Part shown: positions 22,544 to 58,333 of the stretch, piece by piece
Layout of the letters: the number at the start of each line of letters is the position of its first letter
Numbering within the stretch: the first letter of the stretch is position 1
Made by a program: the position numbers and the translations under genes
The notes under the pieces: generated by a model
Told to the model about the DNA's origin: nothing
The model's input: the letters and a program-made list of their open reading frames with translations, nothing else
Databases searched by the model: none
Assembly (NCBI RefSeq): GCF_902833145.1
Contig: NZ_CADFEN010000001.1
Location: forward strand, 435,994-499,993
DNA length: 64,000 nt
Source: Burkholderia sp. BCC0506
GTDB taxonomy: Bacteria > Pseudomonadota > Gammaproteobacteria > Burkholderiales > Burkholderiaceae
Reading direction: 5' to 3'

Positions 22544-22555
22544 GTTAACGCTAAC
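22544..22555. promoter_or_regulatory. Candidate LacI-type operator
   Basis: GTTAACGCTAAC is a near-palindrome with the central CG usual for LacI-family sites, 36 bases upstream of the substrate-binding protein start. A related word, GATAGCGATAAC, occurs at 22334-22345 nearer the regulator gene, so the two could be paired sites. Confidence 0.45.
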
Positions 22556-22591
22556 TCTCGGTTGGCGATACCAACAACGATGGAGACGTGG

Positions 22592-23890: not shown

Positions 23891-23927
23891 GCCGGCTGGA
23901 ATGGAACCGATCGTCAAGGAGGTCAGG

Positions 23928-24845: not shown

Positions 24846-24847
24846 CC

Positions 24848-25693: not shown

Positions 25694-25765
25694 CGACCGC
25701 CCGGCCGCAGCCCGGCGCACGTCGCGGGACGGCGGGATCCACTTACTTGTTCAGTCGAGCGAATC

Positions 25766-26932
25766 ATGGCAAGCATCAGTCTCAAGAACGTCCAGAAGGC
25801 GTACGACGGCAATCCGCCGGTCATTCGGGATGTCGATCTCGAGATCGGCGCCAACGAGTTTTGCGTGTTCCTCGGTCCGTCCGGATGCGGAAAATCGACG
25901 CTGCTGCGGATGATCGCCGGACTGGAAACCATCACGGCCGGCGAACTGAGCATCGATGGTACGCGCGTCAATGACGTGCATCCGTCGAAGCGGCGCGTGG
26001 CGATGGTGTTCCAGAACTATGCGCTGTATCCGCACATGACCGTCTACGAAAACATGGCTTTCGCGTTGCGGCAGGCGAAGATGGACGCCGCGACGATCGA
26101 CGGCAAGGTCAGGCAGGCCGCGGCGTCGCTGCAGCTGGAGACGTTGCTCGAGCGGCGGCCGGCGGCGCTGTCGGGCGGGCAGCGCCAGCGTGTCGCGATC
26201 GGACGGGCAATCGTGCGCGAGCCCGGCGTATTCCTGTTCGACGAGCCGCTGTCGAATCTCGACGCCGCGCTGCGGGTGCAGACGCGAACGGAGATTGCGC
26301 GTCTGCACCGTGAGTTCAACCGGGCGAGCGCGATTTACGTCACGCACGACCAGACCGAAGCGATGGCGCTCGCGGACAAGATCGTGCTGCTGCACGCCGG
26401 CGCCGATATGGAACGCCATGGCAGCGTGGCCCAGGTCGGTGCGCCGCTGGATCTTTACCACCACCCGCGAAGCCGGTTCGTTGCGGGCTTCATCGGCTCG
26501 CCGCGGATGAATTTCCTGCCGGGTCGCATCGTCGCGGTCGATTCAGGCGGGCTCTCGCTCAGCTTGCGTGGCGGCGCGCTGATTCAGGCCGCGGTCGACG
26601 CACGCGGCGTGCAGGTAGGCGCCGACGTCACGCTGGGGGTGCGGCCCGAGCACTTCGTCATTGCCGCAGGCGACGCGCGAAGTCAGGCCGTCAACGCGAC
26701 GACCGGGCTGATCGAGCGTTTCGGCGAGTGTACCTATCTGCACGCGACCGTTGGCGAAGGTCGTGACGTCGGCGTGATCGCGAAGCTTTCCGGCGATGTC
26801 GACATCGGGCGCGGCCGGGCCGTCGCGCTTCATGTGTCGCCCGATGCCTGCCATGTCTTCGATGCCGACGGCATGGCGTTGCCGCGTCTCGCTGCGAAAC
26901 GGCAACAGGATTACGCGTTGCAATCGGCGTGA
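25766..26932 (+). CDS. Sugar ABC transporter ATP-binding protein (UgpC/MsmK type)
   Basis: 388 residues. Walker A GPSGCGKST (about residues 38-46), signature LSGGQRQRVAIGRA, Walker B VFLFDEPLSNLDA, switch His in IYVTHDQTEAMAL. A C-terminal TOBE/MalK regulatory domain follows (VGADVTLGVRPEHF). It drives the CUT1 importer encoded upstream. Confidence 0.92.
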   Translation: MASISLKNVQKAYDGNPPVIRDVDLEIGANEFCVFLGPSGCGKSTLLRMIAGLETITAGELSIDGTRVNDVHPSKRRVAMVFQNYALYPHMTVYENMAFALRQAKMDAATIDGKVRQAAASLQLETLLERRPAALSGGQRQRVAIGRAIVREPGVFLFDEPLSNLDAALRVQTRTEIARLHREFNRASAIYVTHDQTEAMALADKIVLLHAGADMERHGSVAQVGAPLDLYHHPRSRFVAGFIGSPRMNFLPGRIVAVDSGGLSLSLRGGALIQAAVDARGVQVGADVTLGVRPEHFVIAAGDARSQAVNATTGLIERFGECTYLHATVGEGRDVGVIAKLSGDVDIGRGRAVALHVSPDACHVFDADGMALPRLAAKRQQDYALQSA

Positions 26933-27088
26933 TCGCACGGCATACCGGGTCGGCTTCGCCGATGTGCGTCGATCGCCCCGGGCATGGATTCGACCAGACG
27001 GGCGCGGTGCACGCTGTCGCTTGCGTCGCGCACTGAAACGGGTAGCTGGCCCATTCGTCCATCCATTCAATACTTACTTTGGACTCCT

Positions 27089-29509
27089 ATGTCACTCGAT
27101 CTTGAAGAACAACCGGCGCTGTACCGCAATCCGGACGCGCCCATTCCCGCGCGCGTGGCCGATTTGCTCGGCCGCATGAACCTGGACGAAAAAATCGCGC
27201 AGTTGCATGCCGGCTGGCTGAAATTGTCGTCGGACGGCAACCATGCGTGGCGGCTGGCCGATTTCGCGCAGCGGCAGACGGGGATCACCGTCGATGAGCT
27301 GCTGACGCATGGCCTCGGACAGATCACGCGCCCGCTTGGTACGCACTCGGTCGAGGCACGCGAAGGCGTTCGTGCATTGAACGCGCTGCAGCGCAGGATG
27401 GTCGAGAACACGCGCCTGGGTATTCCCGTGATGTCGCACGAGGAGTGTCTCGTCGGCCTGATGATCGAAGGCGCGACATTGTTTCCGGCACCGCTCAACT
27501 ACGCCGCGACGTGGAACCCGGAGCTGGTCGAAGCCGTCGGGCGTGAAATCGGCCGGCAGGCGCGCTCGATCGGCTGCCACCAGGGGCTCGCACCGGTGCT
27601 CGACGTATCGCGCGATCCGCGCTGGGGACGCACCGAAGAGACGCTCGGCGAGGATCCGTATCTGGTCGGCGTGCTGGCCTGTCGTTACGTCGACGGCCTG
27701 CAGGGCGAGCGCCGCGACTTGCTGGCGACGCTCAAGCATTTCGCCGGGCACTCGGCGAGCGAAGGCGGACGCAACCACGCGCCCGTCCACGTCGGCCCGC
27801 GCGAATTCAACGATGTCTTCCTGCTGCCCTTCGAAATGGCGGTCAAGCTGGCCAACGCGGGCGCCGTGATGCCGGCATATCACGACATCGACGGTATCCC
27901 GTGTCATGCGGATCCGACGCTGATCGAGGAAACGCTGCGCGCAAAATGGGGATTCGACGGGCTGGTCGTGGCCGACTATGCCGGCGTCAACCTGCTGTTT
28001 ACGCACCATGGCGTCGCCCATGACGAAGCGCAGGCCGCGGCGCTGACATTCAATGCGGGTCTCGACGTCGAACTGCCGGGGCACGAATGCGCACTGCACC
28101 TGAAGACGGCGATCGAGCGCGGCGACATCGAGATGCCGGCAATCGATGCGGCGGTGTCGCGCGTGCTGACCGAGAAATTCCGTCTCGGGCTGTTCGAGCA
28201 CCCGTACGCGGATCCGGACGGTGTCGATCTGAACGGCGCCGATGCGGCGGTCGTGGCGGATCAGGTCGCACTCGAATCGATCGTCCTGTTGAAGAACGCC
28301 GCGGTACTGCCGGTCGAGGCGGACGGCGCGTCGCGTGTGGCGATCATCGGACCCACGGCCGACGATCCGCTCGCGCTTCTCTCCGGATACAGCTTCCCGG
28401 TACACCTGATCACGACCGGCGAAGATGCGCGTTCGCCGGTGAAGACGCCGTTGCAGGCGTTCAGGGAGCGCTTCGGCAGCGATCGGGTGCTTTACGCGAA
28501 GGGCTGCGAGATTCTGCGCGAGCGCCGCGCGGGAACGCCGGTATTCCCGGGGGATGTCGACATGGCGCGCGCGATCGACGCGGACCGGCAGGCACCCGTC
28601 AGCCGCGAAACCGACCAGATCGCCGAGGCCGTGCGGGTGGCGAAATCCGCGGATGTTGCGATCGTCTTCGTCGGCGATCTGGCCGGGCTGTTTCAGTCCG
28701 GAACCGTCGGCGAGGGATCGGATACGGACAGCCTCGACTTGCCCGGCGTCCAGCAGGCGCTGCTGGATGCCGTCGTCGCGAGCGGCACGCGGACGGTCGT
28801 CGTGCAGACCGGCGGGCGTCCGTACAATCTCGGCGGCCTGGAAGAGGTCGTGGCCGCGCATATCGTCGCGTTCGCGCCGGGCCAGGGCGGCGCCGACGCG
28901 CTCGTGAAGCTGATTGCCGGCGCGGCCGACTTCAGCGGCAGATTGCCGTTGTCGATTCCGAAAAGCGCCGGCGCGGTGCCCTACGTGTACAACCACAAGC
29001 TGAAAAGCGCCGGCACGCCGATTGCCTACCATTTCGGCTCGCGTTACCCGTTCGGCTTCGGTCTGAGCTACACCGAATTCCGTTATGGCGCGCTCGACTG
29101 GATCGACCAAAGGGCGAGCATCGCCGACGGTGTCCTTGAATTCTCGTTCGAGGTCGAGAACGTCGGGGCACGCGACGGGACGGAAGTCGTCCAGATCTAC
29201 GTGCGGGATCGCGTGGCGTCGGTCGTGCGACCGGTGCGGGAACTCAAGGGCTTCCAGCGCGTTTTCGTGCCGGCCGGTGCGCGCAGAACGGTGAACGTCC
29301 GGCTGCCCGTCGATATGCTCAATTTCACCGATGAGCGAGGCGAGCGCATCGTGGAGCCAGGCGAGTTCGACATCATGGTCGGCAGCTCCAGCCGGGACAT
29401 TCATCTGGCCGGTTGCGCGACCGTGGTCGGTGAAACCGCGCGGACGCTCGATCGCCACTGGCGCATGATCTGCGAGGTCACGGCAGGCAGTCCGGTCGCG
29501 GCGGGCTGA
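27089..29509 (+). CDS. Glycoside hydrolase family 3 (beta-glucosidase / beta-xylosidase)
   Basis: 806 residues without a signal peptide, so it acts in the cytosol on imported oligosaccharide. The TIM-barrel domain has the family landmarks DPRWGRTEETLGEDPYL and KHFAGHS (Lys216-His217) and the nucleophile Asp296 in GFDGLVVADYAGV. The second alpha/beta sandwich carries the acid/base region near residues 545-560, and a C-terminal fibronectin-III-like domain follows (FSFEVENVGARDGTEVVQIYV). GH3 members remove terminal beta-glucose, xylose or arabinose; which one is not clear. It is the last gene of the LacI-controlled operon. Confidence 0.9.
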   Translation: MSLDLEEQPALYRNPDAPIPARVADLLGRMNLDEKIAQLHAGWLKLSSDGNHAWRLADFAQRQTGITVDELLTHGLGQITRPLGTHSVEAREGVRALNALQRRMVENTRLGIPVMSHEECLVGLMIEGATLFPAPLNYAATWNPELVEAVGREIGRQARSIGCHQGLAPVLDVSRDPRWGRTEETLGEDPYLVGVLACRYVDGLQGERRDLLATLKHFAGHSASEGGRNHAPVHVGPREFNDVFLLPFEMAVKLANAGAVMPAYHDIDGIPCHADPTLIEETLRAKWGFDGLVVADYAGVNLLFTHHGVAHDEAQAAALTFNAGLDVELPGHECALHLKTAIERGDIEMPAIDAAVSRVLTEKFRLGLFEHPYADPDGVDLNGADAAVVADQVALESIVLLKNAAVLPVEADGASRVAIIGPTADDPLALLSGYSFPVHLITTGEDARSPVKTPLQAFRERFGSDRVLYAKGCEILRERRAGTPVFPGDVDMARAIDADRQAPVSRETDQIAEAVRVAKSADVAIVFVGDLAGLFQSGTVGEGSDTDSLDLPGVQQALLDAVVASGTRTVVVQTGGRPYNLGGLEEVVAAHIVAFAPGQGGADALVKLIAGAADFSGRLPLSIPKSAGAVPYVYNHKLKSAGTPIAYHFGSRYPFGFGLSYTEFRYGALDWIDQRASIADGVLEFSFEVENVGARDGTEVVQIYVRDRVASVVRPVRELKGFQRVFVPAGARRTVNVRLPVDMLNFTDERGERIVEPGEFDIMVGSSSRDIHLAGCATVVGETARTLDRHWRMICEVTAGSPVAAG

Positions 29510-29656: not shown

Positions 29657-30358
29657 TCAATCCGGATCGGCTTTCAGCCCACCCTCGATCCAGCGCGCTT
29701 CGGACGCGCGAAGATGCGCGCGCATGGCCGTCTGCGCCGCGATCGGGTCGCCGGCCTGCAGCGCGAGCAGCACGTCCTCGTGCTCGCGCACGGCGGCGGT
29801 CCAGGTCTGCGGATTCTCCGCGTGGCCGCGCATGGCGGTCGCGATCGGGTCGTGGCGGCTGTCGAACAGCTCGCCGACGAAGCGGGTGAGCACCGAATTG
29901 CCGGCGGCTTCCGCGATCAGCATGTGGAACTGCCGGTCGGCCTCCACCGGCGATTTGCCGGCCTCCGCGAGCCGCTTCATCCGCTGAACCGTGCGGCGCA
30001 GGCGCTCGAGCATCGCGGCCGTCATCCGCGCGGCGGCCAGCGCGGCCACGCTGCCCTCGACGGCCGCGCGGGCCTGCATCAATTCCGACGGACTGTCGCC
30101 GAGCGTGGCCATCGGGCCGACGGCGTCGGCCGCCGTATCGCGCACATACACGCCGGAGCCCATCCGGATCTCGATCTGGCCGCCGATTTCCAGCGCGATC
30201 AGCGCCTCGCGAAGGGACGGACGCGATACGCCGAGCGTCAGCGCGAGCTCGCGCTCCGGCGGCAGCCGCTCGCCGATCGCGAATTCGCCCTGACGAATCA
30301 GCGCGACGATCTGGGCCGCGACCGATTGGTAAAGCCGCTTGGGTTCTGTCGATTTCAT
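29657..30358 (-). CDS. GntR-family regulator, FadR/FCD subgroup
   Basis: 233 residues. Winged helix GEFAIGERLPPERELALTLGVSRPSLREALIALEIGGQIEIRMGSGVYV, then an FCD helical sensor with metal- or acid-binding residues (DRQFHMLIAEAAGNSVL, AVREHEDVLLAL). FCD regulators usually respond to sugar acids or hydroxy acids. It is divergent from the L-galactose-type operon, like the GntR regulator LgoR of the E. coli L-galactonate genes. The ATG at 30358 fits the family; a start at 30472 would run into the operator region. Confidence 0.87.
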   Translation of the reverse strand: MKSTEPKRLYQSVAAQIVALIRQGEFAIGERLPPERELALTLGVSRPSLREALIALEIGGQIEIRMGSGVYVRDTAADAVGPMATLGDSPSELMQARAAVEGSVAALAAARMTAAMLERLRRTVQRMKRLAEAGKSPVEADRQFHMLIAEAAGNSVLTRFVGELFDSRHDPIATAMRGHAENPQTWTAAVREHEDVLLALQAGDPIAAQTAMRAHLRASEARWIEGGLKADPD

Positions 30359-30499: not shown

Positions 30500-30555
30500 T
30501 TGGCTTGACCAAAATTGGTTTGATTGCTGTAATTCATCCAAATTGGACTGACCAG
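30500..30555. promoter_or_regulatory. Repeated TTGGnnTGACCA operator for the GntR regulator
   Basis: TTGGCTTGACCAA (30500-30512) and TTGGACTGACCAG (30543-30555) are two near-copies of an inverted repeat with a five-base centre; a degenerate third copy, TTGGTTTGATTGC, lies at 30515-30527. All are in the 233-base gap between the divergent regulator and ABC genes. Spacing and symmetry fit a dimeric FadR-type GntR repressor. Confidence 0.55.
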
Positions 30556-30591: not shown

Positions 30592-32139
30592 ATGGCAATG
30601 CCTCGCACGCTGCCCGGTGGCGAGACCGCACAGGACGAAGCGGACCGGGAGATCCTGCGCCTGGACGGGATTCGCAAGCGCTTCCCGGGCGTCGTGGCGC
30701 TCGACGGCATTCGCCTCGACCTGCGCCGCGGCGAGGTGCATGCGGTGTGCGGCGAAAACGGCGCGGGCAAATCCACGCTGATGAAGATCATCAGCGGCCA
30801 GTACCTGCCCGACGAGGGCGTCGTCCACTATCGCGGCGCGCCGGTGCAGTTTCGTTCGGTATCCGAAGCGCAGGCGGCCGGCATCGCGATCATTCACCAG
30901 GAGCTCAATCTCGTCCCGCACCTGAGCGTGGCGGAGAACCTGTTCCTCGCGCGCGAGCCGCGGCGCGGGCCGTTCGTCGATACGAAACGCATGAATGCGG
31001 ATGCGGCGCGCTGCATCGCGCGAATCGGCCTGAACGTCGCGCCGACCACGAAGGTCGGCGTGCTGTCCATCGCGCAGCAGCAGATGGTCGAGATCGCGAA
31101 GGCGCTGTCGCTCGATGCGCGCGTGCTGATCATGGACGAGCCCACGTCGTCGCTGACCGAAGCGGAGACGGTGCAGCTCTTTCGCATCATCCAGGAACTG
31201 CGTGCCGACGGCGTGGCGATCCTGTATATCTCGCACCGGCTCGACGAAATGGCGCAGATCGTCGATCGCGTGACCGTGCTGCGCGATGGGCGTCACATCT
31301 CGACGGACGATTTCGCCGACGTGAGCATCGACGACATCGTCGCGCGCATGGTCGGACGCACGCTCGACGACGCCTATCCGTCGCGGCAATCGGTGCCGAC
31401 GGACGACGTGCTGCTCGACGTGCGGGAACTGCGCCGGGACGGCGTGTTCGGGCCGGTGTCGTTCGCGCTGCGCCGCGGCGAGATTCTCGGTTTTGCTGGA
31501 TTGATGGGCGCCGGGCGCACCGAGATCGCACGCGCGATCTTCGGCGCGGATCGCGTGGACGGCGGCACGATCGAACTGCACGGCCGGCCCGTGACGATCC
31601 GCTCGCCGCGCGAGGCGATCCGGCACGGCATCGCGTATCTGTCGGAGGACCGCAAGAAGGAGGGCCTCGCGCTGCCGATGCCCGTCGCGGCGAACCTCAC
31701 GCTCGCGAACGTGCGCGGCATCGCGTCGCGCTTCGGGTTCCTGCGCTTCGACGACGAGCTCGACGTGGCGCGCCGCTACGTGCAGGCGCTCGCGATTCGC
31801 ACGCCGTCCGTGCACCAGCGCGTGCGCAACCTGTCCGGCGGCAATCAGCAGAAGGTCGTCATCGGCAAATGGCTGTACCGCGGCTCGAAGATCCTGTTCT
31901 TCGACGAGCCGACGCGCGGGATCGACGTCGGCGCGAAATTCGCGATCTACGGGCTGATGGACCGGCTCGCCGCCGACGGTGTCGGCGTGGTGCTGATCAG
32001 TTCGGAACTGCCCGAGCTGCTCGGCATGACCGATCGGATCGCCGTTTTTCACGAAGGTCGAATGACCGCATTGCTCGACACGAAACACACCAGTCAGGAG
32101 GAGATCATGCACTACGCGTCGGGGCGTTCCCATGCTTGA
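30592..32139 (+). CDS. Ribose-type sugar ABC transporter ATP-binding protein (two ABC domains)
   Basis: 515 residues with two fused nucleotide-binding domains like RbsA/XylG. The first has Walker A GENGAGKST and Walker B VLIMDEPTSSL. The second has the degenerate P-loop GLMGAGRTE, the signature NLSGGNQQKV and Walker B ILFFDEPTRGIDVG, all normal for this CUT2 family. AAGGAGA precedes the ATG at 30592. It is the first gene of the operon, and it overlaps the permease gene by eight bases. Confidence 0.92.
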   Translation: MAMPRTLPGGETAQDEADREILRLDGIRKRFPGVVALDGIRLDLRRGEVHAVCGENGAGKSTLMKIISGQYLPDEGVVHYRGAPVQFRSVSEAQAAGIAIIHQELNLVPHLSVAENLFLAREPRRGPFVDTKRMNADAARCIARIGLNVAPTTKVGVLSIAQQQMVEIAKALSLDARVLIMDEPTSSLTEAETVQLFRIIQELRADGVAILYISHRLDEMAQIVDRVTVLRDGRHISTDDFADVSIDDIVARMVGRTLDDAYPSRQSVPTDDVLLDVRELRRDGVFGPVSFALRRGEILGFAGLMGAGRTEIARAIFGADRVDGGTIELHGRPVTIRSPREAIRHGIAYLSEDRKKEGLALPMPVAANLTLANVRGIASRFGFLRFDDELDVARRYVQALAIRTPSVHQRVRNLSGGNQQKVVIGKWLYRGSKILFFDEPTRGIDVGAKFAIYGLMDRLAADGVGVVLISSELPELLGMTDRIAVFHEGRMTALLDTKHTSQEEIMHYASGRSHA

Positions 32140-33163
32140 AATGACATCCGATCGAAGCCAGGCCGACGAACGGGCGGCGCGACAGCGGCGGCGCGACCTG
32201 ATCCAGAAGTTCGCGGCGCTGGGCAGCCTGGTCGTGCTCGTGCTCGCGTTCTCGATCTCGAGCGCGGCGTTCTTTTCGGTCGACAACCTGATGACCGTCG
32301 GCCTGCAGGTGACCTCGATCGCCTATCTGGGCGTGGCCGCGACCTGCGTGATCATCACGGGCGGCATCGACCTGTCGGTCGGCTCGGTGCTCGCGCTGGC
32401 CGGCGTGTGCGCGGCGCTGCTGGTCAAGGCCGGCGTGCCGGTGCCCGCGGCGATGGCGGCCGGCATCCTGGTCGGCGCGCTGTGCGGGCTCGTCAACGGC
32501 ATTTGCGTGACGCGCATGGGCCTGCCGCCGTTCATCGCGACGCTCGGCATGATGCTCGTCGCACGCGGCATCGCGCTCCAGATCACGGGCGCGCGGCCGG
32601 TATCGGATCTCGGCGACGCGTTCGGCGCACTCGGCAACGGCGCGCTGCTGCGGATCTCGCACATCGGGGCGGACGGTTTCCCCGATACGACGTTTCCCGG
32701 CATTCCATACCCGGTCGTGATCATGGTCGTGCTGTTCGTCGTGGTGTCCGTGCTGCTGTCGAGAACGTCGCTCGGCCGTCATATCTACGCGGTCGGGTCG
32801 AACGCGGAAGCCGCGCGGCTGTCGGGCGTGAACGTGCAGGGCGTGAAGCTGTTCACCTACGTGCTGTCCGGCGCGCTCGCGGGCGTGACCGGCTGCGTGC
32901 TGATGTCGCGGCTCGTCACCGGGCAGCCGAACGAAGGCGTGATGTACGAGCTCGACGCGATCGCCAGCTCGGTCATCGGCGGCACGTCGCTGATGGGCGG
33001 CGTCGGCACGATTTCCGGCACGGCGATCGGCGCGTTCGTGATCGGCGTGCTGCGCAACGGCCTGAACATGAACGGCGTGTCGAGCTTCATCCAGCAGATC
33101 ATCATCGGCGTCGTGATCCTGGGCACGGTCTGGATCGACCAGTTGCGCAATCGCCGGCCCTGA
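32132..33163 (+). CDS. Ribose-type sugar ABC transporter permease
   Basis: 343 residues with eight to ten helices of the RbsC family. Characteristic segments: IITGGIDLSVGSVLALAGV, GLPPFIATLGMMLVARGIAL, GRHIYAVGSNAEAARLSGVNV and ELDAIASSVIGGTSLMGGVGT. It forms a homodimeric channel with the ATPase encoded just upstream. An in-frame ATG at 32141 is a possible alternative start. Confidence 0.92.
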   Translation: MLEMTSDRSQADERAARQRRRDLIQKFAALGSLVVLVLAFSISSAAFFSVDNLMTVGLQVTSIAYLGVAATCVIITGGIDLSVGSVLALAGVCAALLVKAGVPVPAAMAAGILVGALCGLVNGICVTRMGLPPFIATLGMMLVARGIALQITGARPVSDLGDAFGALGNGALLRISHIGADGFPDTTFPGIPYPVVIMVVLFVVVSVLLSRTSLGRHIYAVGSNAEAARLSGVNVQGVKLFTYVLSGALAGVTGCVLMSRLVTGQPNEGVMYELDAIASSVIGGTSLMGGVGTISGTAIGAFVIGVLRNGLNMNGVSSFIQQIIIGVVILGTVWIDQLRNRRP

Positions 33164-33205
33164 CCGGCAGCAAGCAGTCCCTACCAACGAGAAGCGGAGC
33201 GAGAC

Positions 33206-34153
33206 ATGAACAAATCCATCCTGCTGGCGGCATCGGCATGCGTGTTCGCGGTGTGCAACGGCGGCGCGTATGCGGCGGGCGGCGAGATCGCCGTGATCGT
33301 CAAGACCGTCAATTCGAACTACTGGCAGAACGTGCAGAAAGGCGCGAAGGCCGCGATCGACGGCGTCAAGGGCTACACGATGACGTTCCAGGGGCCGGCG
33401 GCCGAGTCCGACATCAGCGGGCAGGTCAACATGGTCGACAACGCGGTCACGCGCCACGTGGCGGGCATCGTGCTCGCGCCGTCCGATCCCGATGCGCTCG
33501 TGCCCGCGATCAAGAAGGCGTGGGAAGCGCACATTCCCGTCGTGCTGATCGATTCGGCCATCTCGGATGCCGGCAAGCCGTACTACCAGGCGTTCCTGTC
33601 GACCGACAACGAGAAGGCGGGGGCGTTGTGCGCGAAGGCGCTGATCGACCGCGTCGGGCAGTCGGGCAAGATCGCGATCATGTCGTACGTGCCGGGCGCG
33701 GGGTCCGAGATCAGCCGCGTCGGCGGGTTCCGCAAGTACATCGAGAGCCATTCGAAGCTGCAGATCGTCGGCCCGTACTACTCGCAGTCGCAAATGGCGA
33801 CCGCGCTGAACCAGACGACCGACGTGCTGTCGTCCAACCCCGACCTGAAGGGCATCTTCGGTGCGAACGAGCCGACCGCGGTCGGCATGGGCCGGGCGCT
33901 GAAGCAGTCGGGCAAGGCGGGCAAGGTGGTGGCGATCGGCTTCGACGGCAACGAGGATTTGCAGGGCTTCGTGCGCGACGGCACCGTGCAGGCGATCGCC
34001 GTGCAGGGCTCGTGGCAGATGGGGAACCAGGGCGTGCGCACGGCGCTCGACGTCGTCGAGCGCAAGCCCGCGCCGAAGCTGATCGATACCGGCGTCGTGA
34101 TGGTCGACAAGCAGAACCTCGATTCGCAGGCGGCGAAGAACGTCCTGTACTGA
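33206..34153 (+). CDS. Ribose-type sugar ABC transporter substrate-binding protein
   Basis: 315 residues with a signal peptide ending near GGAYA before AGGEIAVIVKT. The two-lobed periplasmic fold shows NSNYWQNVQKGAKAA, VDNAVTRHVAGIVLAPSD and GFDGNEDLQGFVRDGTVQAIAVQ. It captures a monosaccharide for the CUT2 importer; from the downstream enzymes the ligand is inferred to be L-galactose, possibly also L-fucose. AGCGGAGCG lies before the ATG. Confidence 0.9.
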   Translation: MNKSILLAASACVFAVCNGGAYAAGGEIAVIVKTVNSNYWQNVQKGAKAAIDGVKGYTMTFQGPAAESDISGQVNMVDNAVTRHVAGIVLAPSDPDALVPAIKKAWEAHIPVVLIDSAISDAGKPYYQAFLSTDNEKAGALCAKALIDRVGQSGKIAIMSYVPGAGSEISRVGGFRKYIESHSKLQIVGPYYSQSQMATALNQTTDVLSSNPDLKGIFGANEPTAVGMGRALKQSGKAGKVVAIGFDGNEDLQGFVRDGTVQAIAVQGSWQMGNQGVRTALDVVERKPAPKLIDTGVVMVDKQNLDSQAAKNVLY

Positions 34154-34189
34154 CCGACCATGCCGCTTCCCCGCATCCAGTCACGCGCC

Positions 34190-35206
34190 ATGAACGCAAA
34201 CGATACGCGCACGTTGCCGCGCAGCGGGTTGACGGTGTCCGTGCTCGGCCTCGGCTGCTCGCAGCTCGGCGGCCTCTATCGTCCGATGTCGGCCGCCGAT
34301 GCCGCCGCGCTCGTCGACGCCGCGTGGGCGGCCGGCCTGCGCTACTTCGACACCGCGCCGTATTACGGCTACACGCTGTCGGAGCGGCGCGTGGGGGCAA
34401 GCCTCGCCCCGTGCGAGCGCGGCGCCTTCACGCTCAGCACGAAGGTCGGGCGGCTGATGCGCGCCGACGCGAGCGTGCGGCCGGGCGACGACGGCTGGGC
34501 CGAGCCGCTGCCGTTCCGGCCGGTCTACGACTACAGCTACGACGGCATCATGCGCTCCTACGAGGACAGCCGGCAACGGCTCGGGCTCGCGCGCGTCGAC
34601 ATGCTGTACGTACACGACATCGGCGCGATGACGCACGGCGATCGTCATGCGCACTACTGGGAACAGTTGACCCGCGGCGGCGGGTTTCGCGCGCTGGAAG
34701 CGCTGCGCTCGGGCGGCGAGATCGCCGCGTTCGGTCTCGGCGTGAATGAATGGGAAGTCGCGGTCGACGCGCTGAACGAAGCCGCGCTCGACGCCGTGCT
34801 GCTGGCGGGCCGCTATACGCTGCTCGAACAGACGGCGCTCGAACCGCTGCTCGACGCATGCGCCCGGGAAGGGACGGCGATCGTGATCGGCGGCGTATTC
34901 AATTCCGGCCTGCTCGCCGGCAACGGCAAGTTCAACTATGCGGACGCGAGCGCCGACGTGATCGACAAGGCGGCGCGGCTCGGCGTGCTGTGCAGCCGCT
35001 TCGACGTACCGCTTCCGGCCGCCGCACTGCAGTTTCCGTTCGGCCATCCGGCCGTCGTGTCGTGCGTGATCGGCGCGCGCAGCGTGGCCCAGTTGCAGCA
35101 GAACATCGAATGGTTCGAGCGCCCCGTGCCGGCCGAACTGTGGGATGCGCTGCGCGACGAAGGGCTGATCGATGCGCACGCGCCGGTTCCGGGAGCACGC
35201 GCATGA
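34190..35206 (+). CDS. Aldo/keto reductase, L-galactose / L-fucose dehydrogenase type
   Basis: 338 residues. The AKR tetrad is visible: Asp54 and Tyr59 in YFDTAPYYGY, Lys85 in LSTKVGR, His142 in LYVHDIG. The sequence follows the L-fucose (D-threo-aldose) dehydrogenase branch, which oxidises C1 of L-fucose, L-galactose and D-arabinose with NAD(P)+ to the lactone. It is the first catalytic step of the operon. Neither ATG (34160 or 34190) has a clear Shine-Dalgarno; 34190 is closer to the conserved start. Its stop overlaps the lactonase start in an ATGA. Confidence 0.82.
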   Translation: MNANDTRTLPRSGLTVSVLGLGCSQLGGLYRPMSAADAAALVDAAWAAGLRYFDTAPYYGYTLSERRVGASLAPCERGAFTLSTKVGRLMRADASVRPGDDGWAEPLPFRPVYDYSYDGIMRSYEDSRQRLGLARVDMLYVHDIGAMTHGDRHAHYWEQLTRGGGFRALEALRSGGEIAAFGLGVNEWEVAVDALNEAALDAVLLAGRYTLLEQTALEPLLDACAREGTAIVIGGVFNSGLLAGNGKFNYADASADVIDKAARLGVLCSRFDVPLPAAALQFPFGHPAVVSCVIGARSVAQLQQNIEWFERPVPAELWDALRDEGLIDAHAPVPGARA

Positions 35207-36078
35207 CCGCGCGCATCGACGCCCATCAGCACTACTGGCGAATCGGCGCGCGGGCCGGCTGCTGGCCGCCGGCCGAGCTCGACGCGATTCACCGGGATTT
35301 CGGCCCCGCCGATCTGGCGCCGCTGCTCGACGCCGCGCGCATCGAGACGACCGTCCTCGTGCAATCGCTGCCGAGCGAGGCCGACACGCGGTTTCTGCTC
35401 GACGTCGCGGCCGACACCGCGACGGTCGGCGCCGTGGTCGGCTGGGTCGACATGAAGGCCGACGACGCACCGGCGCGGATCGCGGCGTTCGCGGCCGCGC
35501 CGAAGGCGCGCGGCTTGCGACCGATGCTGCAGGACTTGCCCGACGACGCATGGATCGACGATCCGCGGCTGGACCGGGTGGTCGCGGCGATGCTCGAGCA
35601 TGCGCTGGCTTTCGATGCACTGGTGATGCCGCGCCATCTCGATGCGCTGCTTGCGTTCGCGCGACGCCATCCGGATCTGCCGATCGTGATCGACCACGGT
35701 GCGAAGCCGTTCATCGCGCAGGGCGAACTGCAGCCGTGGCTGTCGGCGATGCGCCGGCTCGCGAGCCTGCCGAACGTTCATTGCAAGCTCTCCGGGCTCT
35801 GGACCGAGGCCGGGCCGTCGGCCGGCCCGGACCTCGTGCGCGCGCGCACGCGGCCGTACGTCCAAGCGCTGGCCGAACTGTTCGGGCCGACGCGCCTGAT
35901 GTGGGGCAGCGACTGGCCGGTGCTGCGGCTGGCGTCGGGGTGCGGCGGCTACGGCGACTGGCTGGCCGCGTGCGAGGACGATTGCGCACGCTGGCTCGGC
36001 TCCGCGGCGCTGGCCGACCTCTTCGGCGGCAACGCGCGCCGCTTCTACCGGATCGACACCGCACGCGACGACGAATGA
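35203..36078 (+). CDS. Amidohydrolase-family sugar lactonase (L-fuconolactonase / L-galactonolactonase type)
   Basis: 291 residues of the COG3618 amidohydrolase family. Metal-site residues: His8 and His10 in DAHQHYW, His165 in IDHGAKP and Asp237 in MWGSDWPV. Members open sugar-acid lactones, and the position just after an aldose dehydrogenase fits hydrolysis of L-galactono-lactone to L-galactonate. The start codon overlaps the preceding stop. Related proteins also act on L-fucono- and L-rhamnono-lactones. Confidence 0.82.
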   Translation: MTARIDAHQHYWRIGARAGCWPPAELDAIHRDFGPADLAPLLDAARIETTVLVQSLPSEADTRFLLDVAADTATVGAVVGWVDMKADDAPARIAAFAAAPKARGLRPMLQDLPDDAWIDDPRLDRVVAAMLEHALAFDALVMPRHLDALLAFARRHPDLPIVIDHGAKPFIAQGELQPWLSAMRRLASLPNVHCKLSGLWTEAGPSAGPDLVRARTRPYVQALAELFGPTRLMWGSDWPVLRLASGCGGYGDWLAACEDDCARWLGSAALADLFGGNARRFYRIDTARDDE

Positions 36079-36101
36079 ACCCGAACGAAAGGAAACCCGA
36101 C

Positions 36102-37112
36102 ATGCTCAGCGTGATTTGCGAATCCCCCGGCGTGCTGCGCGTGCAGCAGCGCGAACTGCCCGTGCGCGGCAGCGGCGAAGTGCTGTTGCGCGTGCAGCGC
36201 GTCGGCATCTGCGGCACCGACCTGCACATCTTCACCGGCAACCAGCCGTACCTCGACTATCCGCGCGTGATGGGCCACGAACTTTCCGCGGTCGTCGTCG
36301 AGGCGGAACCGGCGTCGGGGCTTGCCGCCGGCGACGCGGTGTACGTGATGCCGTATCTGTCGTGCGGGCACTGCGTCGCCTGCCGTCACGGCAACACGAA
36401 CTGCTGCGTGAACATCAAGGTGCTCGGCGTGCATCGCGACGGCGCGCTGGCCGAATACCTGAGCGTGCCCGCGCAGTTCGTCCACAAGGCCGACGGCATT
36501 TCGCTCGACCAGGCGGCGATGCTCGAATTCCTCGCGATCGGCGCGCATGCGGTGCGGCGCGCGGACATTCGCGCCGGGCAGCGTGCGCTCGTCGTCGGAG
36601 CCGGGCCGATCGGCATGGCCGCGATGATCTTCGCGAAGCTGCGCGGCGCCGACGTCACGTGTCTCGACACGCGTGCCGATCGCCTGGCGTTTTGCCGGCA
36701 GCATCTCACGGTCGATGCGACGGTGGAAGTGGGCGCGGACGACGCGGCGCGTCTCGCGGAATTGACGAACGGCGAGTATTTCGATGCGGTGTTCGACGCG
36801 ACGGGCAACCTCGATGCGATGAATCGCGGCTTCGAGTTCGTCGCGCATGGCGGCAAATACACGTTGATTTCGATCGTGCGCGGGCACGTCGCGTTTTCGG
36901 ATCCGGAATTCCACAAGCGGGAAACCACGCTGCTCGCGAGCCGCAACGCGACGGCCGAGGATTTCGCGACGGTGCTCGACGCGATGCGCGCGGGGCGCAT
37001 TCCGGACCGCGCGCTGAACACGCACCGGATGCGGCTCGACGAGGTGCCGGACGCGCTGCCGCGGCTGCTGGACGCGGGGCAGACCGTCGTGAAGGCGCTC
37101 GTCGAATGCTGA
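36102..37112 (+). CDS. Zinc-dependent dehydrogenase, L-galactonate 5-dehydrogenase (LgoD/YjjN) type
   Basis: 336 residues of the medium-chain dehydrogenase family. Catalytic zinc: Cys37 in GICGTDLH and His59-Glu60 in GHE; structural zinc: Cys88, 91, 94 and 102; NAD fold at GAGPIG. Several segments (GNQPYLDYPRVMGHE, NTNCC, FSDPEFHKRET, SRNATAEDF) agree closely with E. coli LgoD/RspB as I recall them. LgoD oxidises L-galactonate to D-tagaturonate. ATG at 36102 follows AAAGGAAA; an in-frame ATG at 36075 overlapping the lactonase stop is an alternative. Confidence 0.82.
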   Translation: MLSVICESPGVLRVQQRELPVRGSGEVLLRVQRVGICGTDLHIFTGNQPYLDYPRVMGHELSAVVVEAEPASGLAAGDAVYVMPYLSCGHCVACRHGNTNCCVNIKVLGVHRDGALAEYLSVPAQFVHKADGISLDQAAMLEFLAIGAHAVRRADIRAGQRALVVGAGPIGMAAMIFAKLRGADVTCLDTRADRLAFCRQHLTVDATVEVGADDAARLAELTNGEYFDAVFDATGNLDAMNRGFEFVAHGGKYTLISIVRGHVAFSDPEFHKRETTLLASRNATAEDFATVLDAMRAGRIPDRALNTHRMRLDEVPDALPRLLDAGQTVVKALVEC

Positions 37113-37143
37113 GCGATCGGATCCGGCACGCGGAGCGCGCGCG

Positions 37144-38310
37144 ATGACGCCGCCGATCCTGCAGTTCGGCACGAGCCGCTTCCTGCTGGCGCACGTCGAC
37201 CTGTTCGTCTCGCAGGCGCTGGACGACGGCCACGCGATCGGCGGCATCGGCATCGTGCAGACGACCGGCAATCCGGCCAGCCGCGCGCGAATCGATGCGC
37301 TGCGCGCGGCCGGTCGGTATCCGGTGCGCATTCGCGGGCGCGAGCACGGCATCGTCGTCGACGAACTCGTCGAGTGCCGCGCCGTGCAGCGCGCGTGGGA
37401 CGCCGAGCGCGACTGGGCGGAGATCCGTCGTGCCGCGATCGAGACGGTGCGCGTGATCGTGTCGAACACCGGCGACGCCGGCTATCGTGCCGATCCGCGC
37501 GACGCCGCGGAGTTGCCGGCGCGGCCTGCGCAGGTACCGCATGGCTTTCCGGCGAAGCTGCTCGTGCTGCTGCATGCGCGCTGGCAGGCACGGCCCGACG
37601 ATGGCGTTTCCATCCTGCCTTGCGAACTGGTGACGAACAACGGCGACACGCTGCGCGACATCGTGCTGGGTCTCGCGCGCGAGTGGCGGCTGCCCGACGC
37701 GTTCGCCGACTATCTGTGCAACCGGTGCGTGTGGGTCAATTCGCTTGTCGACCGCATCGTGTCCGAGCCGCTTCACCCGGTCGGCGCGGTGGCGGAGCCC
37801 TATGCGCTGTGGGCGGTCGAACGGCGGGCGGGCATGACGCTGCCATGCCGGCACGCGCAGATCGTCGTCACCGACGATTTGCGCCGCCACGAGCGCCTGA
37901 AGCTGTTCTTCCTCAATCTCGGCCACAGCTGGCTCGCGGAGCAGTGGCGCGCGGCGGGGCGCGACGCAGCGGAAACGGTGCTGGACGCGATGAACGACGC
38001 GCGGCTGCGCGACGGTCTCGAGGCGGTGTGGCGCGATGAGGTGACGCCGGTGTTCGTCGCGCTGGGCTTGCGCGAACCGGCGGAGCGCTACGTCGACCGC
38101 GTGCGCGAGCGCTTTCTCAATCCGTTTCTCGCGCATCGCATCGCCGATATCGCGGTCAACCATCGCGAGAAGGTCGCGCGGCGGATCGAGCCGCTGCTCG
38201 CGCTCGCGGATTCGCTGGCGCTGCCGGCCGGACAGCCGCGGTTGCGGCAACTCGTCGCCCGCTATGAACCGGCGGCCGGCATCGCAACGACAGGGAGAGA
38301 ACCATCGTGA
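37144..38310 (+). CDS. Mannitol-dehydrogenase-family reductase, tagaturonate reductase (UxaB) type
   Basis: 388 residues, shorter than E. coli UxaB (about 480). Nucleotide fold at LQFGTSRFLLAHVDLF, VSNTGDAGY and PCELVTNNGD, and the family catalytic set Lys253, Asn258 and His261 in LKLFFLNLGHS. UxaB reduces D-tagaturonate to D-altronate with NADH, which is the step needed between the zinc dehydrogenase and the UxaA-like dehydratase encoded on either side. It overlaps the next gene by four bases. Confidence 0.82.
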   Translation: MTPPILQFGTSRFLLAHVDLFVSQALDDGHAIGGIGIVQTTGNPASRARIDALRAAGRYPVRIRGREHGIVVDELVECRAVQRAWDAERDWAEIRRAAIETVRVIVSNTGDAGYRADPRDAAELPARPAQVPHGFPAKLLVLLHARWQARPDDGVSILPCELVTNNGDTLRDIVLGLAREWRLPDAFADYLCNRCVWVNSLVDRIVSEPLHPVGAVAEPYALWAVERRAGMTLPCRHAQIVVTDDLRRHERLKLFFLNLGHSWLAEQWRAAGRDAAETVLDAMNDARLRDGLEAVWRDEVTPVFVALGLREPAERYVDRVRERFLNPFLAHRIADIAVNHREKVARRIEPLLALADSLALPAGQPRLRQLVARYEPAAGIATTGREPS

Positions 38311-39830
38311 AGCAACCGGCAATCGTGATCCTTCACGGCCACGACAACGTCGCCGTCGCACTCGACGCGCTGGCGCCGGACGTGCCGGTCGACGTGCGCG
38401 GCGAGCCGCTGCGGCCGGCGGCCGCGGTGCCGGCCGGCCACAAGATCGCCACCGCGCCGATCGCGCGCGGCGACGCGGTCGTCAAATGCGGGCAGCCGAT
38501 CGGCATCGCGCTGCGCGACATCGCCGCGGGCGAGCACGTGCACGTGCACAACGTCGGGATGCCCGAGCGGCATGCGCACGACGACGGGCGTGCGGGCGGT
38601 GCGAGCGACGTTCCGGCGGATCGCGGCGACACCTTCGACGGCTTCGTGCGGCCCGACGGCAGCGTGGGAACCCGCAACTACGTCGGCGTGATCGCGAGCG
38701 TCAACTGTTCGGCGAGCGTCTGCCATGCGATCGCCGATGCATACCGGCATGGCGCGCTCGACGCATTCGGTCACGTCGACGGCGTCGTCGCGATCACGCA
38801 TCAGAGCGGCTGCGGCATGTCGGCGACCGGGGACGGCATCGAACTGCTGCGGCGCACGCTCGTCGGCTATGCGCGCAACCCGAATTTCGCCGGCGTGCTG
38901 CTCGTCGGCCTCGGCTGCGAGGTCAACCAGGTCGGGGCGCTCGCGCAACGGCTCGACGCGGCAGCGCCGGGCACCGTGCGCACGCTGGTCATCCAGGACG
39001 AGGGCGGGGTGCGCGAAACCGTCGCGCACGGCGTGTCGATCGTGCGCGAGTTGCTGGAGACGGCCGACCGCGCGCGTCGCAGCGCCGTGCCGGCATCGCG
39101 GCTGACGGTCGGCCTGCAATGCGGCGGCTCCGACGGCTACTCGGGCATCACGGCGAACCCGGCGCTCGGCGCGGCCGTCGATCTGCTGGTGCGCAACGGC
39201 GGCACCGCGATCCTGTCCGAGACGCCCGAGATCTACGGCGCGGAGCATCTGCTGATCGCACGGGCGGCCTCGCACGACGTGGCCGAGCGTTTGCTCGGCA
39301 GATTGCAGTGGTGGGAGCGCTACGTCGCCGACAACGGCGGCGAAATGAACAACAACCCGTCGCCCGGCAACCTCGCCGGCGGCATCACGACGATTCTCGA
39401 GAAGTCGCTCGGCGCGGTGTCGAAGGGCGGCCGCTCGCCGCTGCGTGCGGTCTACGATTATGCGGAGCCGGTGCGGCAAGCCGGGCTCGTGTTCATGGAT
39501 ACGCCCGGCTACGACCCGGTGTCGGCCACCGGGCAGATCGCTGGCGGCGCGAATCTGGTGTGCTTCACGACAGGCCGCGGTTCGGTGTTCGGCTCGAAGC
39601 CGGTGCCGACGATCAAGATCGCGACGACGACCGGCCTGTTCGAGCGGATGCGATCGGACATGGATTTCGACAGCGGCGGGATCGTCGCCGGGTCGCTCAC
39701 GGTCGACGAAGCGGGGGAGCGGCTGTTCCGGCTGATGCTCGACGTCGCGTCCGGGCGACGATCCCGCAGCGAGGACAACGGCATCGGCGAACGCGAGTTC
39801 GTGCCGTGGCTGCGCGGCGCGGTCATGTGA
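38307..39830 (+). CDS. Altronate dehydratase (UxaA) type enzyme
   Basis: 507 residues with an N-terminal SAF domain (about 1-75, HGHDNVAVALDAL then IGIALRDIAAGEHVHVHNV) and the UxaA/GarD dehydratase core: GFVRPDGSVGTRNYVGVIASVNCSAS, THQSGCGM, LGCEVNQ, LQCGGSDGYSGITANPALG and DNGGEMNNNPSPGN. It converts D-altronate to 2-keto-3-deoxy-D-gluconate, the end product of this operon. The start is GTG, overlapping the preceding stop in GTGA with GGGAGAGA upstream. No KDG kinase or aldolase follows, so these must come from elsewhere. Confidence 0.87.
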   Translation: MKQPAIVILHGHDNVAVALDALAPDVPVDVRGEPLRPAAAVPAGHKIATAPIARGDAVVKCGQPIGIALRDIAAGEHVHVHNVGMPERHAHDDGRAGGASDVPADRGDTFDGFVRPDGSVGTRNYVGVIASVNCSASVCHAIADAYRHGALDAFGHVDGVVAITHQSGCGMSATGDGIELLRRTLVGYARNPNFAGVLLVGLGCEVNQVGALAQRLDAAAPGTVRTLVIQDEGGVRETVAHGVSIVRELLETADRARRSAVPASRLTVGLQCGGSDGYSGITANPALGAAVDLLVRNGGTAILSETPEIYGAEHLLIARAASHDVAERLLGRLQWWERYVADNGGEMNNNPSPGNLAGGITTILEKSLGAVSKGGRSPLRAVYDYAEPVRQAGLVFMDTPGYDPVSATGQIAGGANLVCFTTGRGSVFGSKPVPTIKIATTTGLFERMRSDMDFDSGGIVAGSLTVDEAGERLFRLMLDVASGRRSRSEDNGIGEREFVPWLRGAVM

Positions 39831-39924: not shown

Positions 39925-41886
39925 CTATGCGGCCGACAGCGTGATCGACACGCCCGTCGCGGTGTAGACCGGCGTGGCCTTGAATCCGTCGACCGTCACC
40001 GTCGCGAACTTCGCGGCAGCCGCGGCGCCGTCGATCAGCGCGATGGTGTCGCCGGCCTTCGGCGCGTAGCCGTTCACGAATTTCACGTGCAGCGTGCCGC
40101 CCGCGACGGTGAGCGGCCCGCCCACGCGCAGGCGTCCGCCGCCGTTGCCGTCGATGTCGAGTTCGAGCGTCGTGTTGTCGAGCTGCGTGTAGCGGGTGGC
40201 GATCGTCACCGGCGCGGCGGCCGCGATCCGCACGCTGCCGCCCGGGCCGACGTATACGTCCCCCTTGCCGAACGCCGTCGTCGACGCGGCCGCCAGCGTG
40301 CCGCCGTTCACCTGCGTGCCGCCCGTGTAGCCGTTGTTGCCCGCCAGCGTCAGCGTGCCGCTGCCCTCCAGCGTCAGCTTGCCGGCGCCCGCGATGTCGT
40401 TGCGCCACGCGTCGGCGGCATTGAGCCCGCCCTGCGACGCATCCATCGACACGATCACGTTGCCGTTGAACGCGCCGTAGCCGTCGGCCGCCGCGAACAG
40501 GTTCAGGCGGCCCCAGCCTTCCGCGTCGTCCATGACCGGATAGCCGGACGGCAGCTCGGTCGTCTTCAGCACGACGCGCCGCTGGTCGGCGCTCAGGTAC
40601 GGGAAGCGCGTCTGCAGCAGGATCTCCGCGCCCTTCGGCACGACCGGCGGTGCGTTCGTCGATTCGATCGCACCGAAGCCGAACGTCATGCGGCGAAGGA
40701 ACGCGGCCTTGTTCGCCGCGTAGTCGGCGAACCGGTCGGTGGCCGTCGTGCCCGAGTGCGCGAAGGCGGCGAACGTCGTGGCGCTCGTTCCCGTCAGTTG
40801 CCGCAGCGTCTGATGGGCTTGCGTGTAGGCCGCCTGCGCATCGCCGGCGTACGCGGTCAGGTTCGCCGCGCTGACGGCCAGCGCGAGCATCCGGCCGCCG
40901 ATCACGTCGAGCGGCGAATGCATCCCGGCGAGAATCCGGTTCTCGCCGAGTTCGAGGCCGCGGCTGATCATCTCCTGGAAGCGTTCCGGCACGAGCCACG
41001 CCATCGTCGTCGCATCGCGCACCGCCTCGGCCGTGTGGCCGCTGATGAAGCCGCCGTCGGTCGCGGGCGTGGCGCTTTCGGCCGGCACGAGCGTCGGCGC
41101 GACGACCACGCTCGTGCTCCAGCGGTACGGGCGCGCATATTTGAAGAAGCGCTTGGACGGTTCGGTCGACGCGTTGTTGCCCATTTCATTGAGCAGGTCG
41201 ACGACCTTCCCGAAACTGGCGTTGCCGCTGCTGCTGCCGACGCCGACGTTGTTGCCCGAGTCGTTGTACAGCACGGTCGTCGCATCGGCCGGCACGCTGG
41301 CGATGCTGGTCGTCTGCTGGGCCGCGGTGCGCCATGCGGCGGTAAGCGGGCCCATGCCGTCGGTCACGCTGTATCCCTTGCCGCGCCGGTCGTCGTAGTA
41401 CGCGGCGTCGGCCTGCTGCGGCGTACGCGCGGTCGTCGCGTTGACCACATACTGCACGTTGGCCGACAGCACCGCGTCGTTCAGGATCGTGCCGCACGGC
41501 ACGCCGCTGTTCGGCAGACCGGAGCAGGTCGACGGCGAGATGGCCGGGAACGCGCCGCTGGCCGGCGCGCTCACGCCCGCGTCGACCAGCATCGTCGCCG
41601 GTTGCCAGAGATCGAGGAAACGGCTCAGCACGCGCACCGCGGCGTTGGTCGACAGCGTCGCATAGCGCGCGTCGCCGCGCTGGTTGGTCGCGACGTTGTC
41701 GACGAACGCCGGCGCGCTCGGGATCGGGGCGCTGTCGACGAAGCCGGGGTCGGCGGGCGGCGCCGGAACGGCCGCGGCGATGGTGCCGGTCGACGTGACG
41801 TCGTCGCCGCCGCCGCAGGCAGCCAGTACGAGCGCACTCGACAATGCCGCGACGTGCAGCGGGAAACGGCTTCGTGACGCAAACAT
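39925..41886 (-). CDS. PAP2-family acid phosphatase lipoprotein with an autotransporter-type repeat
   Basis: 653 residues. A lipobox (LAAC, Cys24) marks it as a lipoprotein. The class A acid phosphatase signature is complete: Lys245, six residues, Arg252-Pro253; Ser282-Gly-His284; Arg317, five residues, His323 and Asp327. Beyond about residue 500 comes a passenger-associated autotransporter repeat (GAGKLTLEGSGTLTLAGNNGY, then GGTQVNGGTL) and a beta-rich tail, but no translocator barrel is present. It would hydrolyse phosphate esters at the envelope. The single MFASRSRF start at 41886 is preferred to 41898. Confidence 0.85.
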   Translation of the reverse strand: MFASRSRFPLHVAALSSALVLAACGGGDDVTSTGTIAAAVPAPPADPGFVDSAPIPSAPAFVDNVATNQRGDARYATLSTNAAVRVLSRFLDLWQPATMLVDAGVSAPASGAFPAISPSTCSGLPNSGVPCGTILNDAVLSANVQYVVNATTARTPQQADAAYYDDRRGKGYSVTDGMGPLTAAWRTAAQQTTSIASVPADATTVLYNDSGNNVGVGSSSGNASFGKVVDLLNEMGNNASTEPSKRFFKYARPYRWSTSVVVAPTLVPAESATPATDGGFISGHTAEAVRDATTMAWLVPERFQEMISRGLELGENRILAGMHSPLDVIGGRMLALAVSAANLTAYAGDAQAAYTQAHQTLRQLTGTSATTFAAFAHSGTTATDRFADYAANKAAFLRRMTFGFGAIESTNAPPVVPKGAEILLQTRFPYLSADQRRVVLKTTELPSGYPVMDDAEGWGRLNLFAAADGYGAFNGNVIVSMDASQGGLNAADAWRNDIAGAGKLTLEGSGTLTLAGNNGYTGGTQVNGGTLAAASTTAFGKGDVYVGPGGSVRIAAAAPVTIATRYTQLDNTTLELDIDGNGGGRLRVGGPLTVAGGTLHVKFVNGYAPKAGDTIALIDGAAAAAKFATVTVDGFKATPVYTATGVSITLSAA

Positions 41887-42067
41887 GCAAGACTCCATCC
41901 TGATGGTCGAAGATGGAGGATTGTGGTGAGCGATCGTTACGCGGCCGTTACGGAATTGTTTCGCGTGCTGGTCGTTGCGCGCGAATTCCCACTATCTGGT
42001 TAATTTCCGGTGCTGAACATGACGGGCGTCGGAATCGATGCGTCCGTCACCGAAACAGCGCGCCGGC

Positions 42068-58280: not shown

Positions 58281-58333
58281 CGGGGCTCCGTTTCTGTTAC
58301 AATTTAATAGATAATATATGCATGGTGGTCGGA
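58281..58333. promoter_or_regulatory. AT-rich divergent promoter region
   Basis: The 53 bases between the divergent aminotransferase and GntR starts include an AT-only stretch (AATTTAATAGATAATATAT, about 58301-58319) in an otherwise GC-rich area. It must hold at least one promoter and probably the GntR operator; no single palindrome is convincing. Confidence 0.4.

Follow-up and report, generated by a model that had tools for sequence, protein, structure and literature searches.

A predicted L-galactose catabolic operon with its own importer and regulator in Burkholderia sp. BCC0506

Gene content and proposed route

Which sugar is taken up and degraded by the products of a compact eight-gene operon in Burkholderia sp. 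BCC0506? We analyzed this locus within a 64,000-nucleotide stretch of the 7.29 Mb genome (contig NZ_CADFEN010000001.1, positions 435,994 to 499,993; hereafter the window, in whose own numbering all positions are given). The locus is probably a dedicated catabolic operon for L-galactose, a sugar known from the side chains of plant cell walls, from the making of vitamin C in plants and from algal galactans, and whose use by bacteria has been studied in few organisms. An earlier interpretation made from the DNA letters (the sequence-only reading) had described eight consecutive plus-strand genes in the order given below, and this was borne out. The genes are tightly packed between 30592 and 39830, all reading frames are open and complete, neighbors overlap by 4-8 bp or are separated by gaps of 6-42 bp, and Pfam confirmed the domains of every encoded protein. 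A GntR regulator had also been counted with the operon; it is present and divergent, but at 29657-30358 it lies just outside the interval that had been assigned to the system. The features are as follows.

29657..30358, minus strand: GntR/FCD transcriptional regulator, divergent (Pfam GntR and FCD domains; blastp)
30500..30512, plus strand: predicted operator 1, TTGGCTTGACCAA (core conserved in regulator-importer gaps)
30543..30554, plus strand: predicted operator 2, TTGGACTGACCA (conserved core; pattern scan)
30592..32139, plus strand: ATPase of a sugar ATP-binding cassette (ABC) importer, CUT2, AraG/RbsA-like, 515 aa (Pfam and NCBIfam scans)
32132..33163, plus strand: permease of the sugar ABC importer, 343 aa (Pfam and NCBIfam scans)
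33206..34153, plus strand: periplasmic sugar-binding protein, 315 aa, a close relative of PDB 4wut
34160..35206, plus strand: aldo-keto reductase (AKR), predicted L-galactose (L-fucose-type) 1-dehydrogenase, 348 aa (PDB matches, tetrad, tree)
35203..36078, plus strand: COG3618-type amidohydrolase, predicted L-galactono-lactonase, 291 aa (Pfam PF04909; PDB 4dlf set)
36102..37112, plus strand: zinc medium-chain dehydrogenase, predicted L-galactonate 5-dehydrogenase (LgoD-like), 336 aa (identity to LgoD)
37144..38310, plus strand: short mannitol-dehydrogenase-family enzyme (UxaB-like), predicted D-tagaturonate reductase, 388 aa
38307..39830, plus strand: UxaA/GarD-superfamily dehydratase, predicted D-altronate dehydratase giving 2-keto-3-deoxy-D-gluconate (KDG), 507 aa, GTG start (Pfam GD_AH domains)

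In the best-supported reading, where all substrates as well as the inducer and the direction of regulation are predicted from sequence, the binding protein, permease and ATPase would import L-galactose. The AKR would oxidize it to the lactone, which the lactonase would open to L-galactonate; the zinc dehydrogenase would then convert L-galactonate to D-tagaturonate, the UxaB-like enzyme would yield D-altronate, and the dehydratase would form KDG, which may leave through a kinase and an Eda aldolase encoded elsewhere. The GntR/FCD protein would repress the operon through two TTGGMYTGACCA sites until the sugar or a sugar-acid intermediate is present. The sequence-only reading had proposed the same order of reactions from L-galactose to KDG. 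The protein-family matches, the presence in this genome of a separate L-fucose locus, double loci of the Ralstonia type and the conservation of regulator and operator together suggest an L-fucose/L-galactose-type sugar feeding an L-galactonate branch and thus favor this order, whereas the altronate dehydratase step is assigned by context. The grouping of regulator, importer and enzymes is found again in many genera, which excludes chance.

The importer belongs to the CUT2 class, with a double ATPase, a BPD_transp_2 permease and a Peripla_BP_4 binding protein (Pfam and NCBIfam). For the AKR, L-galactose dehydrogenases made up the top five of the 21 distinct PDB sequences matched, all at distant similarity (E 5e-27 to 5e-19). 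Residues D64, Y69, K95 and H152 fit the AKR catalytic tetrad, and an alternative internal ATG is possible at 34190. In an AKR tree of 47 rows, built without those of eleven near-copy loci and of repeated short loci, 29 rows from zinc-dehydrogenase loci and seven from L-fucose clusters were each set apart by one change (support 99/95); some of the 29 came from loci that also carry L-fucose genes, and the 11 rows in neither group were not counted. A second AKR of the same genome (L092) shares 41% identity, and none of the other queried pathway genes adjoins it. The lactonase carries the Pfam PF04909 domain, and the best of its three PDB matches was the 4dlf/4dlm/4dnm/4do7 set (E 1.4e-43), which we take to come from the Hobbs 2013 study on L-fucono-lactonase.

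By blastp, the zinc dehydrogenase shares 42.7% identity with E. coli LgoD, compared with 31.3% for RspB, and it keeps the zinc-ligand and four-cysteine motifs; judged by these comparisons, the operon holds a gene for an LgoD-like zinc dehydrogenase. The next protein had been read as a UxaB-type reductase. A member of this family is indeed encoded beside the zinc dehydrogenase, with 31% identity to E. coli UxaB and 26% to UxuB (blastp) and a K-x4-N-x2-H motif at 253, but in a conserved short form, 95 residues below E. coli UxaB (483 aa); the 51 orthologues extracted span 375-399 aa. The protein was matched at E <=1e-60 in 96 of the 299 genomes of the family examined.

The last enzyme fits its earlier description, a UxaA-type altronate dehydratase, only at the level of the UxaA/GarD superfamily, to which its GD_AH domains assign it. 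It shares 35% identity with E. coli UxaA and 38% with GarD, and because these values are so low its assignment as an altronate dehydratase rests on context. In a tree of 35 rows (32 of 44 collected sequences plus three added, after 12 near-copies, truncated or repeated rows and second paralogues were dropped), it falls into a third group apart from E. coli UxaA and GarD (support 94/92) and is thus no UxaA orthologue. A plain E. coli-type uxa/lgo operon was ruled out by this placement. The third group includes two Azospirillum proteins encoded directly beside uxaC, two others for which uxaC lies somewhere in the sequence read, the Paracoccus protein from an L-galactose-type cluster, and members beside other kinds of enzyme. 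On Klebsiella aerogenes plasmid pC9_001 (L121), a dehydratase of the same group is encoded next to a KDGal kinase and a KDPGal aldolase, which belong to another sugar-acid route.

Regulation, conservation and genomic context

The regulator combines a GntR helix-turn-helix with an FCD domain (Pfam) and shares 36-37% identity with E. coli ExuR and UxuR (blastp). It is likely a dedicated local repressor acting at a predicted operator, with direction and inducer likewise predicted. The core TGGNYTGACCA was present in 65 of the 67 regulator-importer gaps (66 loci and the window), which are related sequences and hence not 67 independent cases, against 0.1% of mononucleotide-shuffled gaps; it was found in 2.2% of random stretches from the same loci, true sites included. 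Two TTGGMYTGACCA sites, both exact, occur in the window, where 0.36 would be expected with one mismatch allowed. The whole genome holds three exact sites, two of them at the operon, and one match to a reversed control pattern; none was found in the stretch of its own L-fucose locus. Scans for a sigma-70 promoter and a terminator found none at either operon end.

That L-fucose locus (G000:C7) is separate and carries all five L-fucose enzyme genes. Compared with Ralstonia, its KDF dehydrogenase is 77% identical, its FAH hydrolase 83%, its enolase-type fuconate dehydratase 86% and its L-fucose dehydrogenase 72%, the last reaching 441 bits where the cut-off is 300. The locus also has a GntR gene and encodes a COG3618 lactonase as well as an ABC importer, the importer being related to that of the window by 57% (ATPase), 44% (permease) and 29% (binding protein) identity; no mutarotase match was seen at this locus. 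In the window operon, no gene matches fuconate dehydratase, KDF dehydrogenase or FAH hydrolase, so its gene content is not that of the L-fucose pathway. Together with the separate locus, this suggests two parallel systems for related sugars, and a duplicate L-fucose operon was ruled out on the same two grounds.

A scan with the binding protein found 271 relatives. Among these, the best 80 loci were kept and counted with per-gene identity thresholds; some are cut by contig ends, and some absences may be unreal. The regulator was found in 68 of these loci, the zinc dehydrogenase in 62, the UxaB-like gene in 51, the AKR in 43, the AKR together with the lactonase in 24, and the dehydratase in 26, while 11 loci held regulator and importer alone. 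The UxaB-like gene lay directly beside the zinc dehydrogenase in all 51 loci having both, and 25 of the 26 dehydratase loci also contained the zinc dehydrogenase and UxaB-like genes. In six loci of the Ralstonia type (L039, L042, L044, L047, L048 and L050), an L-fucose arm flanks the importer, and on the side of the regulator lie the genes for the zinc dehydrogenase, the UxaB-like enzyme and the dehydratase; in L042, the sole one of them that was family-scanned, the first enzyme exceeds the cut-off for L-fucose dehydrogenase, with 444.9 bits against 300.

The AKR and the dehydratase were also sought in nine genomes whose importer locus has no AKR, and in the genome of the Azospirillum locus L072; matches to both were found in all ten. 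In AKR regions from seven of the nine (those of G301 and G305 were left out), FAH or KDF-dehydrogenase genes adjoin the AKR in every case, a lactonase is present in six, and a distant UxaA-family gene (33-37%) in all seven. These regions (L193-L199) are L-fucose clusters of Paraburkholderia, Trinickia, Caballeronia, Pararobbsia and Burkholderia sp. Leaf177. Their distant UxaA-family gene perhaps encodes a fuconate dehydratase replacing the enolase, which fits a remark in PMC6336799.

The zinc dehydrogenase and UxaB-like genes stand at another place in two of the genomes, at L190 in that of L059 (Caballeronia sordidicola) and at L192 in that of L068 (Burkholderia sp. Leaf177), accompanied by a GntR gene and two operator-like sites and, in L190, by the dehydratase as well; in L191, from the genome of L049, the dehydratase has a GntR gene and a single operator-like site nearby. 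These separately placed gene sets, together with the AKR regions, suggest a modular arrangement in which C1 oxidation and lactone opening are shared and the L-galactonate module is separable. A plasmid of Paracoccus seriniphilus, a marine isolate (L119), carries mutarotase, lactonase, UxaB-like, AKR, importer, zinc dehydrogenase and dehydratase genes; six of the encoded proteins were compared with those of the window and share 43-61% identity with them, and its regulator is 32% identical to E. coli LgoR and has no match to the window regulator. We put forward tentatively, at slightly less than even odds, a broader view in which, across Proteobacteria, L-galacto sugars of both the 6-deoxy and the 6-hydroxy kind would enter through a hub made up of one importer and one regulator family. 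L-fucose modules, L-galactonate modules made of zinc dehydrogenase, short UxaB and third-group UxaA, or both would be swapped behind this hub, the C1 dehydrogenase and lactonase being either common to them or present in duplicate, and Burkholderia would have split them into two systems, its AKR being sister to the AKRs of L-fucose clusters.

The close named relatives of the operon are in Burkholderia cepacia-complex species such as B. latens (88-98% per protein). A nucleotide search of plasmids matched 231 records, and among the matches listed one, from Burkholderia cenocepacia, covers at least 80% of the operon (94.1% identity). Upstream, at 21218-29509, a LacI-type gene on the minus strand is followed on the plus strand by a CUT1 ABC importer and an 841-aa GH3 enzyme. 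The structures closest to this enzyme are beta-xylosidases, and isoprimeverose-producing enzymes come among the matches that follow; these genes perhaps serve the use of plant hemicellulose. In the 80 importer loci, rough gene calling gave no cluster partner for the GH3, binding-protein and permease genes of this upstream region, and partners in only three other loci for its ATPase gene. The upstream genes were left out of the system because they are not conserved beside the operon. Adjoining the operon end, 39925-41898 on the minus strand encodes a protein that combines a PAP2 phosphatase-type domain with an autotransporter passenger repeat. The G+C content drops from about 67% to 52-61% at 58001-64000, and this window end may be a mobile or foreign region.

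Weighing the alternatives

How firmly do these observations point to L-galactose? Several of them weigh against it. The full AKR-lactonase-zinc dehydrogenase-UxaB-UxaA set occurs in just 12 of the 80 importer loci, the AKR being missing from 37 and the zinc dehydrogenase from 18. Among the NCBIfam families listed for seven operon proteins (the lactonase excluded; the best 25 of 190 for the ATPase and the best 25 of 26 for the zinc dehydrogenase), none reached its cut-off, with 199 against 359 bits for the UxaB-like protein and 390.4 against 730.85 bits for the dehydratase, so the names of the operon proteins rest on lower similarity together with context. The dehydratase is no closer to UxaA than to GarD. 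An Eda aldolase is present in the genome above its cut-off; the KDG kinase is uncertain, the best match to E. coli KdgK having 32% identity. PDB 4wut is the binding protein of an Agrobacterium vitis locus (L082; regulator, importer, AKR, lactonase, enolase dehydratase and zinc dehydrogenase), identical except for the first few chain residues, and its depositors labelled it a ribose-type protein. It was reportedly deposited in complex with D-fucose, which would not fit an L-galactose importer. For the operator, two or more TTGGMYTGACCA matches appeared in 3 of 100 shuffles of the window, and across nine other genomes exact sites were hardly commoner than the reversed control (29 against 23). 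Given this near-control frequency and the shuffle result, only the conserved position of the operator counts as evidence.

The sugar could be L-galactose and the route nonetheless different, with the UxaA-family enzyme dehydrating L-galactonate directly to 2-keto-3-deoxy-L-galactonate and the zinc dehydrogenase and UxaB-like protein serving another acid or an epimerizing side route. This version gains from ACAV_RS08155 of Acidovorax avenae, a member of the same superfamily described as an L-galactonate dehydratase in L-galactose metabolism (unpublished data mentioned in PMC6336799), and from Watanabe 2019, whose title names an L-galactose pathway. The Azospirillum locus L072 points the same way and counts against the route through tagaturonate, since its 62% dehydratase relative lies among L-fucose-type enzymes, beside KDF-dehydrogenase and FAH genes, and the locus has neither a zinc dehydrogenase nor a UxaB-like gene; the closest UxaB-like match in the whole genome stands at 37%. 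Against direct dehydration stand the near-constant company of the three genes (25 of 26 loci) and their separate module in L190, as well as the two same-group Azospirillum relatives adjoining uxaC, which is part of a D-galacturonate route that needs an altronate dehydratase. Moreover, neither a KDF-dehydrogenase nor an FAH gene is in the operon, though the genome has both at C7. We therefore regard direct dehydration as unlikely.

The identity of the sugar itself can also be questioned. L-fucose, D-arabinose and L-galactose have the C2-C4 configuration in common, and such enzymes often accept all three, so that the operon might chiefly be a second uptake and oxidation system for L-fucose or D-arabinose with L-galactose as a side substrate. 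The importer does stand with an enolase-type fuconate dehydratase gene in 8 of the 80 loci, but all eight also have the zinc dehydrogenase. L-fuconate has no free C6 hydroxyl and cannot become tagaturonate or altronate, which would leave the later three enzymes of the operon without such a use, while the downstream L-fucose genes are missing here and present, with their own importer, at C7. Broad acceptance is documented for mammalian L-fucose dehydrogenase, which takes all three sugars according to PMC13406643. On balance, a second L-fucose or D-arabinose system appears quite unlikely. An added role in the use of L-glucose or L-gluconate through a 4-epimerase encoded elsewhere, as in Luteolibacter LG18, where LguA and LguD act on both sugars and both acids (PMC12632266), is highly improbable: no epimerase gene is among the eight of the operon, the rest of the genome not having been searched for one, and L-glucose is presumed absent from nature according to the same text. 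A dedicated L-galactose operon agrees best, on indirect evidence, with the parallel L-fucose locus, the double loci, the AKRs found beside L-fucose genes in genomes whose importer locus has none, and the recurrent operator core.

Comparison with known systems

If this assignment is true, the genes of the operon would make it possible to predict which Burkholderiales of soil and plants use L-galactose; the operon would also offer a dedicated importer, and its sensor-operator pair could serve as an L-galactose biosensor. It would also be a clear case of a sugar pathway rebuilt from that of a 6-deoxy relative, and would give a function to one branch of the proteins annotated only as "altronate dehydratase family".

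The sequence-only reading had known of no described bacterial operon with the full set, a claim that does not survive the literature. In Luteolibacter LG18, a cluster published in 2025, lguABCDEF, was shown by gene disruptions to support L-galactose use via tagaturonate and altronate to KDG (PMC12632266), and L-galactose and L-galactonate dehydrogenases of Bacteroides vulgatus had been reported in 2014 (Hobbs 2014, as cited there). The L-galactose-to-KDG route was therefore already known. Compared by description, the Luteolibacter cluster likewise unites AKR, zinc dehydrogenase, tagaturonate reductase and altronate dehydratase genes with a regulator, and the B. vulgatus counterparts (BVU_0219 and BVU_0222), compared by description alone, cover the two dehydrogenase steps. 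Unlike the Burkholderia operon, the Luteolibacter cluster as listed in that text names no importer or lactonase; it has an annotated Btr-type activator, includes a KDPG aldolase, and serves L-glucose via a separate epimerase. The orthologue search described in the same source reported no organism with the lgu set minus the epimerase. In the sources that we could consult, which cover subscription papers little and so give weak evidence of absence, no description of the present Burkholderia operon was found.

The E. coli LgoD-UxaB-UxaA route comprises the same three reactions that are predicted for the later part of the operon, with LgoD as the relative of the zinc dehydrogenase, but it starts at L-galactonate with the symporter lgoT, its genes are scattered, its UxaB is longer and its UxaA belongs to another clade. 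The B. vulgatus pathway is said to include a lactonase as well (Bvu0220) and to end at D-tagaturonate, which reportedly enters the general uronate enzymes; to our knowledge, no dedicated ABC importer has been described for it. The non-phosphorylating L-fucose pathway of Burkholderia multivorans, Xanthomonas and Herbaspirillum shares the first two reaction types, and the L-fucose locus of the present genome has an importer and a GntR gene of the same kinds; that pathway, in contrast to the operon, continues through fuconate dehydratase, KDF dehydrogenase and FAH hydrolase. Set beside these systems, what is new is a Burkholderiales version equipped with an importer, a lactonase, a regulator and a predicted operator, and its modular link to L-fucose catabolism.

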